Positions 12,799 to 15,895 of a stretch of 20,689 bases of DNA are shown in pieces. The notes below the pieces were generated by a model. It searched no databases. It was not told where the DNA came from and worked only from the letters and a program-made list of their open reading frames with translations. The position numbers and the translations under genes are program-made. Every line of letters starts with the position of its first letter. The stretch's first letter is position 1. This DNA comes from a virus: positions 1 through 20,689 of IMG/VR virus record IMGVR_UViG_3300017917_001081. The stretch is one strand, 5' to 3'.

Positions 12799-13257
12799 CT
12801 ATTTATAAGGTGCGTAGGCTGTTTTGCCATTCACCTTAAGTGCTCTCAACACTTGCTTTCGATTTGCCCCCTTATTATAAGAAACGTGAACCCAGTCTGG
12901 TTTATTGTTGTCACCAAACTCCCATATTAATTGGTCAAAATCTAAAGTGTCTTTTATAAAGTTAAAGATTTCTGTGTTAGTAGCTCCGCCCATACCATCT
13001 TGGTCTATATCTGCCGCTTTAGCCTCGCAATGTTGTGATTTCAAACTTCCACCGATGTAGTGGTTTAATGCCTTAGACCTATATCCAGAAGAAATGTTAA
13101 TAGGACCAAACTTAACTCTGATTGGTTCTAATACTTTTTCACAAAGTACTTTAAGGTTTTCTAAGTGCTCTGGAGTAGGCTCATTAGATACTCCATGTCT
13201 TTTAGCTGATTCGCTACGAGTAAATTCTGCAAGTGCAAAGTGTTCTGATAATTTCAT
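12799..13257 (-). CDS. Peptidase M15 endolysin (zinc endopeptidase), 152 aa
   Basis: Matches the M15 fold: LSEHFALAEFTRS at the start, PIRVKFGPINISSGYRS (about 45-61), and a zinc site with His76 and Asp83 in SQHCEAKAADID and His124 in DWVHVSY. It cuts peptide bonds in peptidoglycan during lysis and is the usual endolysin of Bacteroidota phages. In the first zinc motif (usually H-x-x-G-x-A-x-D) the glycine is Ala79. No signal peptide is seen, so it needs a holin. The small membrane genes just upstream on the same strand supply that candidate role. Confidence 0.93.
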   Translation of the reverse strand: MKLSEHFALAEFTRSESAKRHGVSNEPTPEHLENLKVLCEKVLEPIRVKFGPINISSGYRSKALNHYIGGSLKSQHCEAKAADIDQDGMGGATNTEIFNFIKDTLDFDQLIWEFGDNNKPDWVHVSYNKGANRKQVLRALKVNGKTAYAPYK

Positions 13258-13258
13258 C

Positions 13259-13345
13259 TTATATCATTTTAGAAAAAAAGTAAACAATAAGAGTGCCCCA
13301 CATAATGGCAGCACCAATCAATACTCTCTTTTCGTAATTAGTCAT
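13259..13345 (-). CDS. Very small membrane protein of the lysis cassette, 28 aa
   Basis: Reads MTNYEKRVLIGAAIMWGTLI and ends YFFSKMI. Basic residues (Lys6, Arg7) precede one hydrophobic helix (about 8-25). It overlaps the holin-like gene's stop by 8 nt (ATGACTAA) and ends 1 base before the endolysin start, an arrangement that argues for real translation. It may be a second holin component or antiholin, which is inferred only from place and topology. Confidence 0.65.
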   Translation of the reverse strand: MTNYEKRVLIGAAIMWGTLIVYFFSKMI

Positions 13346-13553
13346 TTTTCTTAAATATTTTCTCTACTGATGTAAGGCCTAAACAACCAAACGCTAACAA
13401 AGCTACTGATTCTACGAGAATTGGACTTGGAGCTGTATGCTCATCACTAAATTGATTATGGTACATAGTTGCACAAAGTGCGATAACACATAATAATCCG
13501 CATAAACGCTTCATACTAAATTGACCATTTTCTTCTTGAAAAAATTGTTTCAT
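13338..13553 (-). CDS. Putative holin, two membrane spans, 71 aa
   Basis: A short polar N-terminus (MKQFFQEENGQFSMKRLCG) is followed by two membrane helices (about 16-32 and 44-62) and a basic end (VEKIFKKND). The layout FF-EENGQFSMKRL plus a second helix with FGCLGL is common in Bacteroidota phage holin-like proteins. Both ends are expected in the cytoplasm (class II-like). It sits directly before the endolysin and would form pores for it. It overlaps the 28-aa gene by 8 nt. Confidence 0.8.
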   Translation of the reverse strand: MKQFFQEENGQFSMKRLCGLLCVIALCATMYHNQFSDEHTAPSPILVESVALLAFGCLGLTSVEKIFKKND

Positions 13554-13554
13554 A

Positions 13555-13938
13555 TTAATGTAGTTGACTAAATTGTAAAACGATAATAAACATTAGCAAC
13601 ATTTTGCTAAGTGCGTGTATCTTATCTATTTTTTTTTGGTTTTCTTCCCAGTCTTGGTATAAAGATTTATTAACTGAGTACTTGTATTTCCAATTATAGA
13701 AGCTATCTTTTTCAATAGTTCTAACGCTGAGTAAAGAGTCATTCTTTTTAAGTTTAAATTGTAAATTGTTTATAGAATCATGATATGACCTATAAAGATT
13801 GTTTATAGTATCTGCTTGACCTATGGTAATAATCACCACAGAGTCTTGGCCTATCTTTTTAGTTTTTGGGTATTGCGAGAATATTAAAGTTGGTGCCAGT
13901 ATCAACGCCAGCACTATCAAGCTTAATCTTAACTTCAT
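13555..13938 (-). CDS. Exported lysis-cassette protein, spanin-like candidate, 127 aa
   Basis: Residues 1-21 look like a signal peptide or anchor (LRLSLIVLALILAPTLIFSQ). A periplasmic helical part follows (NNLYRSYHDSINNLQFKLKK to about 105) and a hydrophobic C-terminal helix (110-124). Its 5' end lies inside the upstream gene (80-nt overlap, other frame). The embedded arrangement resembles Rz/Rz1 spanin pairs, but there is no lipobox cysteine, so the match is partial. It lies 1 base before the holin gene. Confidence 0.7.
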   Translation of the reverse strand: MKLRLSLIVLALILAPTLIFSQYPKTKKIGQDSVVIITIGQADTINNLYRSYHDSINNLQFKLKKNDSLLSVRTIEKDSFYNWKYKYSVNKSLYQDWEENQKKIDKIHALSKMLLMFIIVLQFSQLH

Positions 13939-14191
13939 TTAATTCTGTTTTTAGGGCGATAGTTTCTTCTTTTAATTCAGTAACCTTGTCAATGGTTTGC
14001 ATTACTATGGCTTCTTTTGCCTTGTCAGCTTGAACTTGTACTTCTTTATTCTTGGAAAGTGTCTGATGAAACTCATTCATCAACTGCTGAAACTCTTTAT
14101 CCTCTTGAGGGGCTATTTCTGGCTTGTCGGTTACCTTATGACCAACAACTAAAACACCAGATAATAATAAAGTTAATAAGGTCGCTTTCAT
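13859..14191 (-). CDS. Membrane-anchored coiled-coil protein, i-spanin-like, 110 aa
   Basis: A short N-terminal membrane segment (about 3-17, LLTLLLSGVLVVG) is followed by a long Glu/Lys/Gln-rich coiled coil (about 30-95). This is the layout of inner-membrane spanins (Rz). No cleavage site is obvious. Its end overlaps the next gene by 80 nt, and its start shares one base with the upstream stop (TAATG on the - strand). The C-terminal part reads GVDTGTNFNILAIPKN. Role inferred from topology and cassette position. Confidence 0.7.
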   Translation of the reverse strand: MKATLLTLLLSGVLVVGHKVTDKPEIAPQEDKEFQQLMNEFHQTLSKNKEVQVQADKAKEAIVMQTIDKVTELKEETIALKTELNEVKIKLDSAGVDTGTNFNILAIPKN

Positions 14192-14496
14192 TATTTAACT
14201 GATTTTTTTATTGCCCCCATAGCGTCTAAAGTCTCGAGTTTAGTCGTAGTAGATGATAGGGCTGTTTTACACTCTATTAATGCTTGAGTTTTTAGGCTAT
14301 CCTTATACTCAAGATTGTTAATTCTGTTCTCTTGATTGTCTATTCTGCTGTTAAAATTGGCTCTTATGTCCACATATAAAGCAGAAATTCCTATGATAAC
14401 AAGGAATAAAGTTCCCACAATGGGATTTTTAGCAAAGTCTTTAAAGCTAATCGGAAGAGGATTAGCACTCACATTTACATCTTTCTTAGGAGCCAT
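14191..14496 (-). CDS. Membrane-anchored coiled-coil protein, 101 aa
   Basis: A polar start (MAPKKDVNVSANPLPISFKD) leads to one membrane helix (about 26-43), then a coiled-coil (about 48-95; NFNSRIDNQENRINNLEYKD and LETLDAM). It is a bitopic membrane protein with a long periplasmic helix, like phage proteins near lysis genes. It lies 3 bases after the upstream gene, and its stop shares one base with the next start. Confidence 0.7.
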   Translation of the reverse strand: MAPKKDVNVSANPLPISFKDFAKNPIVGTLFLVIIGISALYVDIRANFNSRIDNQENRINNLEYKDSLKTQALIECKTALSSTTTKLETLDAMGAIKKSVK

Positions 14497-14499
14497 TTT

Positions 14500-15093
14500 C
14501 TATTTTTTACCAAGTTTAAAATATACGCCAACTGAGTAGCCTATATTATAAGTTTTACTAATATTAAGATTAAGACCTATTAGAGCCTTATTTTTGGCAT
14601 TTAGCATTAAACCAGGACTTAGTACTTCTAAGCCATTATTTTGGCTAAAATCGCCTCTTATGCCGTAAAAAAGCCTATACTTAGCTTTCTCTGCATAATA
14701 CTCCTTAACATAGATGGTTTTCTCGGTAAATTTAGCTGTAAAGCCACGAGATTTGATACGGTTTTGGGTTATAGTATCATTAATCACAAAGATATTAGAA
14801 TCTTGTTTAATAGTGTCTGAGTATGCCTTAACAGCCATGTAGTCTGTAAGCACATTCACAGTATCGTGAATTATGGTAGTGTCTGTAGCTATAATCACAA
14901 AAGGGATAGAATCCCCTTTTATGTACCGATTTTTGTACGTTTTTGTGTACAAGGTATCGTGTACCTCTTTAATCTTTTCGTAGTCTTTAGGATTAAACTC
15001 TTTTGGGTCGCTTATGCCATTAACTTGTCTATATGCCCAAACAGCCACAAAAGCTAAAAGTATAATCAGTAAGTAATCCTTAAGAGTTTTCAT
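14500..15093 (-). CDS. Membrane-anchored protein with beta-strand C-terminus, 197 aa
   Basis: One membrane helix is at about 7-21 (YLLIILLAFVAVWAY). A periplasmic part (25-135) has repeated Asp-Thr-hydrophobic strands (DTLYTKT, ATDTTIIHDTVNV, NDTITQN). The last 60 residues alternate polar and apolar residues and have aromatic ends (YRLFYGIRGDFS, GLMLNAKNKALIGLNLNIS, IGYSVGVYFKLGKK), like outer-membrane beta-barrel hairpins. A protein anchored in one membrane with an outer-membrane-like end could bridge the envelope as a unimolecular spanin. This is only a hypothesis; no family is recognised. It lies 1 base after the tail-tube-type gene upstream. Confidence 0.7.
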   Translation of the reverse strand: MKTLKDYLLIILLAFVAVWAYRQVNGISDPKEFNPKDYEKIKEVHDTLYTKTYKNRYIKGDSIPFVIIATDTTIIHDTVNVLTDYMAVKAYSDTIKQDSNIFVINDTITQNRIKSRGFTAKFTEKTIYVKEYYAEKAKYRLFYGIRGDFSQNNGLEVLSPGLMLNAKNKALIGLNLNISKTYNIGYSVGVYFKLGKK

Positions 15094-15094
15094 A

Positions 15095-15472
15095 TTATGC
15101 TAAAGTATAATCTCCAGTTCCTTGCAAACTTACAGAATACGTAGCAACTCCTTCTACTGGTCCATCAACTGACACAGATTCAATATTGCAAGTGCCAGAA
15201 AACACCTTAGTTCCGATTGTAAAAGTCACAGAAATCTGAGTATTATTCTCTTGGTCTGTAAGCATATCAAAATAATCGTAGTTGTCTAAAGTAACAAGTC
15301 CTTCACAACTAATTGTAAAAGATTTGAAACCATAAGCATATTCTTTTCTAAATGAAGATGATTTATTTGTTACATCTATTTGTTCTGATGATACGTCTAA
15401 TGTGCAAGATGTGGATGCTGCAAACACAGTTCCACTTTTAGCTAAAATTACGTCTGTTCCGTTAATTGCCAT
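15095..15472 (-). CDS. Phage tail tube-type protein, copy A, 125 aa
   Basis: Starts MAINGTDVILAKSG and has the Bacteroidota tail-tube pattern: CTLDVSSEQIDVTNKSS, FKSFTISCEGLV, LDNYDYFDML, then a beta sheet and the end EGVATYSVSLQGTGDYTL. This matches the TP901-1-like tail tube fold in which beta proteins stack as hexamer rings. It is clearly paralogous to the gene upstream. Its position after the distal tail gene is unusual for the main tube gene, so it may instead be a tail tip or decoration relative. Confidence 0.85.
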   Translation of the reverse strand: MAINGTDVILAKSGTVFAASTSCTLDVSSEQIDVTNKSSSFRKEYAYGFKSFTISCEGLVTLDNYDYFDMLTDQENNTQISVTFTIGTKVFSGTCNIESVSVDGPVEGVATYSVSLQGTGDYTLA

Positions 15473-15490
15473 TTTATTATATTTTTATTT

Positions 15491-15895
15491 TTATACGAAT
15501 GTGTAAGCCCCAGTTCCTTTAAGTGATACAGAATAAGTACCAGCACCTTCTGCTGGTGCATTTAAGTCTACAGAAGTTACATAAACTTCTGCATTAACAG
15601 TAACAGTTCCATCTAAATTAACTATTTGAAACTTAACTGTTAGTTTAGTACGAGCTATTTGAGCATCTAATAAGTCTTTATAGTCATAGTTATCTCTTGT
15701 AACAAAACCATCTGCTGTAATTTCAAACTCCATATTTGTTGGCAAATACTCCTTAAAGTTACCAGAAGCACCAGTTGTCACCTCTATTAAAGATGAACTT
15801 GTAGAAAATGAGCAAGTTGTAGATGCTCCAAAGACGTTACCAGCTGATACTGAATCTTTATAAAGAACCATATTGTTCCCAAGTGTAATAGGCAT
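15491..15895 (-). CDS. Phage tail tube-type protein, copy B, 134 aa
   Basis: Paralogue of the next gene on this strand. Shared blocks are CxxxxSxxxIxVT, MEFEITADGFVTRDNYDYKDLL, and EGAGTYSVSLKGTGAYTF. It is slightly longer in the NLDGTVTVN loop. The same beta-fold and ring-forming role are expected. The two may form alternate rings or differ in site of action. It lies 18 bases before copy A and 11 bases after the large tail protein gene. Confidence 0.85.
   Translation of the reverse strand: MPITLGNNMVLYKDSVSAGNVFGASTTCSFSTSSSLIEVTTGASGNFKEYLPTNMEFEITADGFVTRDNYDYKDLLDAQIARTKLTVKFQIVNLDGTVTVNAEVYVTSVDLNAPAEGAGTYSVSLKGTGAYTFV

Follow-up and report, generated by a model that had tools for sequence, protein, structure and literature searches.

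A candidate unimolecular spanin with a predicted beta-sheet in place of a lipid anchor, encoded in phage lysis cassettes

Background

In the lysis cassettes of phages that infect Gram-negative bacteria, disruption of the outer membrane is the third function, beside those of the holin and the endolysin. The subject of this report is a 197-residue protein encoded in such a cassette on a 20,689-base viral contig from IMG/VR (record IMGVR_UViG_3300017917_001081; guanine-plus-cytosine (GC) content 32%), the whole of which is referred to as 'the window', together with the viral protein family to which it belongs (the '197 family'). The reading favoured here, with a little better than even confidence, is that this protein is a unimolecular spanin with an undescribed type of anchor, in which a beta-sheet replaces the lipid at the outer-membrane end.

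Unimolecular spanins (u-spanins) have been defined by the combination of a lipobox and a C-terminal helix, and have been described as beta-rich proteins that lack periplasmic cysteine (Kongari et al. 2018; PMC6139136). The same survey counted about 13% of phages as spanin-less, including Bacteroides phage B124-14 and Croceibacter phages P2559S and P2559Y, and foresaw other topologies and anchors (for example, an outer-membrane protein acting as o-spanin) that were left out of its catalogue. In a subsequent survey (ISME J 2025; PMC12596118), u-spanin candidates without a lipobox or helix were removed, and Bacteroidetes phages were said to use only u-spanins; in passages of a flavophage paper (PMC8776804), a few unimolecular spanins were annotated and no beta-anchored type was described. 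No published beta-anchored spanin was found in the open-access literature, and because published spanin surveys require a lipobox, proteins of that kind would have been missed by the resulting catalogues.

The 197-residue protein resembles u-spanins of the T1 gp11 type (PMC6139136) in having a terminal membrane helix and a periplasmic part rich in beta-structure (strands predicted by AlphaFold2 (AF2) at residues 38-59, 88-97, 100-109 and 112-135) and in being encoded within a lysis cassette; the window copy also lacks periplasmic cysteine. Unlike those proteins it lacks an N-terminal lipobox (the window copy contains no cysteine, and the family displays no conserved lipobox), its sole membrane helix is N-terminal rather than C-terminal, its outer-membrane end is a predicted beta-meander, and its sequence matched no named family of Pfam, PHROGs or NCBIfam and no entry of the PDB. 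The overlapped class of two-component spanins (Rz/Rz1) also finds parallels in the window, where genes for 101- and 110-residue proteins abut, the 110-residue gene overlaps a 127-residue gene out of frame, and some members of the 110 family are lipoproteins; the window copy of the 110-residue protein, however, has no lipobox, and the pair is missing from the smallest cassettes that carry the 197 family.

The 197 family and its linkage to endolysins

The features of the protein under study are:

14500..15093, minus strand: 197-residue spanin candidate, with an N-terminal membrane anchor, a beta-rich periplasmic part and a C-terminal four-strand meander (sequence, hydropathy, AF2, relatives)
15022..15084, minus strand: N-terminal membrane helix of that protein, residues 4-24 (hydropathy, AF2)
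14512..14685, minus strand: four-strand beta-meander, residues 137-194, a candidate outer-membrane anchor (AF2, VIA-align, amphipathicity)

The protein's own clade comprises homologues from about 98 distinct viral contigs; further homologues form two more clades (the L229 group, with 50 contigs, and the L239 group, with 20), and two relatives occur singly, one in a GenBank phage record (MW202828, Manatee Spring) and one in a contig (L319) of a Bacteroidetes metagenome-assembled genome (MAG). Across these clades the architecture is that of a single N-terminal helix, a variable middle and a conserved beta-structured C-terminus, with 15-35% identity to the window protein. A tblastn search of 50,697 phage records returned MW202828 as the sole convincing relative, and 296 sampled Bacteroidota genomes yielded no relative other than that on L319; a genome scan with a narrow alignment of the family gave no match. 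Near the amidase of Croceibacter phage P2559S, three open reading frames (ORFs) were inspected by eye, none of which is a full-length equivalent, although one of them was read in a wrong frame.

Among the 135 distinct loci, from all three clades, in which the contig extends at least 1.5 kb downstream, an endolysin gene lies downstream of the 197 family in 134, at a median gap of 560 nucleotides (nt), and never upstream. The preliminary description of this locus, made from its sequence, had read it as a lysis cassette and proposed a search for homologues beside M15 endolysins; that reading is well supported by 88 loci with an M15 enzyme and by a further four classes of wall enzyme unrelated to it and to one another (GH19, 19 loci; GH24, 17; Amidase_2, 9; Amidase_3, 1). 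On a tree of the family, at least nine switches between endolysin classes can be placed, a number that is approximate because the tree is a quick one with long branches. The family is thus well supported as a lysis-cassette component that is not tied to one enzyme, because its gene stays in position while the neighbouring wall enzyme is repeatedly replaced, and this is the strongest result of the present analysis.

In the own clade, three cassette layouts recur: one in which the 197 gene is followed by genes for two small holin-like proteins of 66 and 64 residues and then M15; that of the window (197-101-110-127-71-M15); and one that reads 197-101-125-71-M15. The 197 gene is the only gene, apart from those that are holin-like, common to all three. 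These loci were fetched by way of the 197 gene; a converse scan that started from the endolysin recovered the same cassettes for close M15 relatives, and M15 genes at a greater distance, with about 60% identity, sit in other surroundings.

The case for a spanin role

The holin-like and endolysin roles in these cassettes are filled, leaving outer-membrane disruption as the missing function, and it is for this reason that the 197 family is a spanin candidate. In 89 minimal cassettes the 101- and 110-residue genes are absent, which leaves the 197 family as the one clear candidate for spanning the periplasm. Lipoprotein-like genes are scarce in these loci: a scan of the sense strand for such ORFs came up empty in 81 of the 89. 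The scan itself can be relied upon, because it flagged all eight of the L239-clade loci that carry a lipobox-bearing relative of the 110-residue protein. Within the window, the cassette proteins have no lipobox, as the preliminary description had claimed, and a strict scan of both strands of the whole window agrees, having returned no lipoprotein-like (SPII-like) ORF.

A lipobox-free spanin of an undescribed type, which was also first proposed in that description, is the explanation that best fits the anatomy and distribution of the family. In the mechanism envisaged, the N-terminal helix would stay in the inner membrane and the long beta-rich segment would pass through the mesh of peptidoglycan to span the periplasm. 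The C-terminal meander would lodge in the outer membrane, where copies of the protein would probably associate to complete a barrel; three copies with four strands each would supply 12 strands, the number in YadA/Hia anchors. The 71-residue holin-like protein would fire, the M15 endolysin would then remove the wall, and the freed tethers could move and collapse, bringing the two membranes together and opening the outer one; this sequence of wall digestion, release and membrane fusion is borrowed from the published model of known spanins and would apply by analogy. The 101-, 110-, 127- and 28-residue proteins would be accessory parts of one cassette variant.

If this is true, a second way of anchoring a membrane-fusing tether exists, and the family may allow many Bacteroidota phages to burst the outer membrane; it provides a concrete and widespread candidate for phages counted as spanin-less, and the question can be tested with one cloned gene. 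The fullest form of the proposal, in which a single protein is integral to both membranes by way of an inner-membrane helix and a trimeric 12-strand outer-membrane barrel, and is used widely by spanin-less Bacteroidota phages with any type of endolysin, is more tentative, and is given somewhat less than an even chance.

Predicted structure of the 197-residue protein

An AF2 model of the monomer, built from an alignment of 49 sequences, reached a predicted local distance difference test score (pLDDT) of 77.6 and a predicted template-modelling score (pTM) of 0.39, and replaced an earlier model (pLDDT 60) that had relied on a less diverse alignment. The predicted fold consists of a helix at residues 4-24, long strands at 38-59 and 112-135 and mostly beta-structure elsewhere, with a C-terminal meander at 140-192 (pLDDT 82-85) formed by strands 140-150, 154-166, 170-179 and 184-192. 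Hydrophobicity alternates in those four C-terminal strands and in none of the others (combined p about 0.005). Structural comparison of residues 137-194 with VIA-align matched the meander to EspP beta8-12 in the BAM complex (Z 6.0, root-mean-square deviation 2.4 over 55 residues), to the anchor of AtaA (Z 5.5), to the anchors of Hia (Z 5.2, 18-20% identity) and to TamAB (Z 4.9), and a search of BFVD matched it to phage YadA-like anchor proteins over 52-60 columns (E 0.08-0.2). The meander thus resembles, over about 55 residues, the four-strand anchor of YadA/Hia trimeric autotransporters, and differs from it in having no Pfam match, in being preceded by a long beta-strand rather than a coiled coil and in being joined to an inner-membrane helix rather than to a passenger, at a Z of only 5-6; its likeness to pieces of outer-membrane barrels is suggestive only.

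Over most of its length, the model was also matched by Foldseek to phage proteins of DUF6808 (PF20647), for example A0A8S5PJU3 (E=2.4e-7). The PF20647 profile gave sub-threshold matches in three of the 49 family members (best E=0.0053) and none in the window protein; DUF6808 is not known to us to have a described function, and a literature search found no paper that names it. Judging from this predicted fold, DUF6808 may include spanins. Two BFVD entries, A0A8S5PJU3 and A0A8S5R786, are DUF6808 phage proteins that match the model in fold, and a DUF6808 scan of Bacteroidota genomes returned two long ORFs.

Weighing the alternatives

Several observations weigh against a beta-anchored spanin. Soluble folds tie with the membrane proteins in the VIA-align comparison (CcbJ, 5.8; factor H binding protein, 5.8; an odorant-binding protein of the lipocalin type, 5.2), all fold matches to the meander fall below Z 8, and values of 5-6 lie in the range of common arrangements; in addition, no Pfam membrane-anchor family, including the YadA/Hia anchor, matched any of the 49 members at E<=1. 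The preliminary description had claimed an inner-membrane anchor and an outer-membrane-like beta end, and had called for structure prediction: the N-terminal helix and the C-terminal beta-meander were both recovered by hydropathy and AF2, but soluble barrels score as highly as outer-membrane ones, which leaves some probability to a soluble C-terminal domain, an outcome that the description had named as refuting its reading. The beta-signal pattern of outer-membrane proteins is present in 18 of 18 members of the window protein's clade but also in 26% of shuffled sequences, and the other two clades do not fit it; it was set aside as uninformative. On the genomic side, the eight minimal cassettes that did give a lipoprotein-scan match owe it to an FFGC motif within the 197 family's own membrane helix (these loci belong to part of one subclade), most L229-clade members carry a cysteine just after the helix, and in some L229-clade cassettes the 197 family is not quite the sole candidate, since a small protein that has a single helix and a coiled-coil-like tail is encoded there too. 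No endolysin is evident among the listed ORFs that flank the L319 relative, and the proposed mechanism would require a chain anchored in the inner membrane to reach the BAM machinery.

Those structural ties and the missing Pfam anchor match lend themselves to an account in which the 197-residue protein acts in lysis from the inner membrane, in the manner of an i-spanin, and its soluble C-terminal sheet docks on a host outer-membrane protein, on the inner leaflet or on the wall without itself entering the outer membrane. Four strands alone are unable to close a barrel, which is a further point in its favour; the alternation of hydrophobicity in all four strands and the fact that the best fold matches include outer-membrane anchors from three different proteins argue the other way, and this account is regarded as rather unlikely. 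A two-component spanin, composed of the 110-residue protein as the outer and the 101-residue (or 127-residue) protein as the inner partner, with the 197-residue protein serving lysis in a different way, for example by controlling the holin or the endolysin, is less probable again. A lipobox is indeed present in 11 of 71 members of the 110 family (the L239 group, with LAGC and variants, and L249 and L253, with VFGC and VLGC), one lipobox-bearing relative weakly matches a PHROG Rz-like spanin (E=0.008), and the overlap of the 110- and 127-residue genes resembles that of overlapped spanin genes. The window copy and 60 of the 71 relatives, however, lack an N-terminal lipobox, and all 89 minimal cassettes keep the 197 family without a 110 gene; as to the proposed inner partner, hydropathy gives the 101-residue protein one helix, and its coiled coil was seen by eye only. 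In the lipobox-bearing phages, 101 with 110 or 127 with 110 could be a two-component spanin, and the pairing of the 110-residue protein in the window is perhaps a relic or modified form of one; that these proteins are a general outer-membrane factor is unlikely, because they are missing from entire groups of phages. Finally, the two tail-tube paralogues immediately upstream of the 197-residue gene might suggest that the cassette genes encode virion parts, a reading that was set aside as very improbable: linkage follows endolysins of five classes while the upstream genes vary, and the 197-residue protein has a single N-terminal membrane anchor. A u-spanin with a beta-sheet anchor remains the favoured description of the 197 family.

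A separate observation on the 110 family is that in one phage (L249:4205-5068) a member of the 197 family occurs together with a lipobox-bearing 110 relative that is encoded downstream of the endolysin, which makes this phage a natural setting in which to tell the two roles apart.

The gene block in the window

The other features of the cassette are:

14191..14496, minus strand: 101-residue protein with one membrane helix (about residues 26-44) followed by a periplasmic coiled-coil-like part; i-spanin-like or holin-like (hydropathy; PHROG holin E=0.003)
13859..14191, minus strand: 110-residue protein with an N-terminal signal or anchor and a coiled-coil-like part; no cysteine in the window copy (hydropathy, relatives)
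13555..13938, minus strand: 127-residue protein with a signal peptide and a C-terminal membrane helix (ORF call, hydropathy, relatives)
13338..13553, minus strand: 71-residue two-helix holin-like protein (hydropathy, relatives)
13259..13345, minus strand: 28-residue single-helix protein (ORF scan, conservation)
12799..13257, minus strand: M15 peptidase endolysin (Pfam Peptidase_M15_3 E=1.3e-16; PHROG endolysin E=2.8e-36)

Read along the minus strand, the order is two tail-tube paralogues, the genes for the 197-, 101-, 110-, 127-, 71- and 28-residue proteins, and then the M15 endolysin. The block of six genes ahead of the endolysin is therefore present as first described, as are all three of its overlaps: 1 nt between the 101- and 110-residue genes, 80 nt in a different frame between the 110- and 127-residue genes, and 8 nt between the 71-residue gene and the 28-residue ORF (13345-13259), which escapes ORF lists that have a floor of 40 residues. 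The membrane anchors ascribed to these proteins were recovered by hydropathy, and the coiled coils of the 101- and 110-residue proteins were again seen by eye only. Of 54 relatives, 53 retain the 110/127 overlap, at 77, 80 or 89 nt and with a constant frame offset; an ORF of the 28-residue type follows the 71-residue gene in 43 of 53 cassettes of the window layout, with the exact 8-nt overlap in most; and 50-69% of substitutions fall at third codon positions in the 197, 101, 110, 127, 71 and M15 genes. Because the overlaps recur in relatives, the 28-residue ORF is kept and substitutions favour third codon positions, the arrangement is not a product of chance. The 28-residue protein is possibly a small holin regulator. 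A promoter scan gave a result no better than that for shuffled sequences.

The host of the window virus would be a member of the Bacteroidota, since one relative lies on the MAG contig L319, a Flavobacterium phage is among the close cultured relatives of the M15 gene, and the GC content is low.

Both tandem tail-tube paralogues directly upstream of the 197-residue gene (window positions 15095-15895, minus strand) belong to Phage_tail_2, and in relatives such genes occur in up to three copies, or as longer versions further upstream. Elsewhere among the loci, ORFs resembling GIY-YIG homing endonucleases, recognized by eye, occupy varied sites in the lysis region (L063:6448-7014, L076:5590-6273, L078:3647-4330 and L243:4700-5302), and in one large phage a 372-residue ORF that by eye resembles a PAS sensor (L260:3890-5008) lies between a holin-like gene and a GH19 endolysin.
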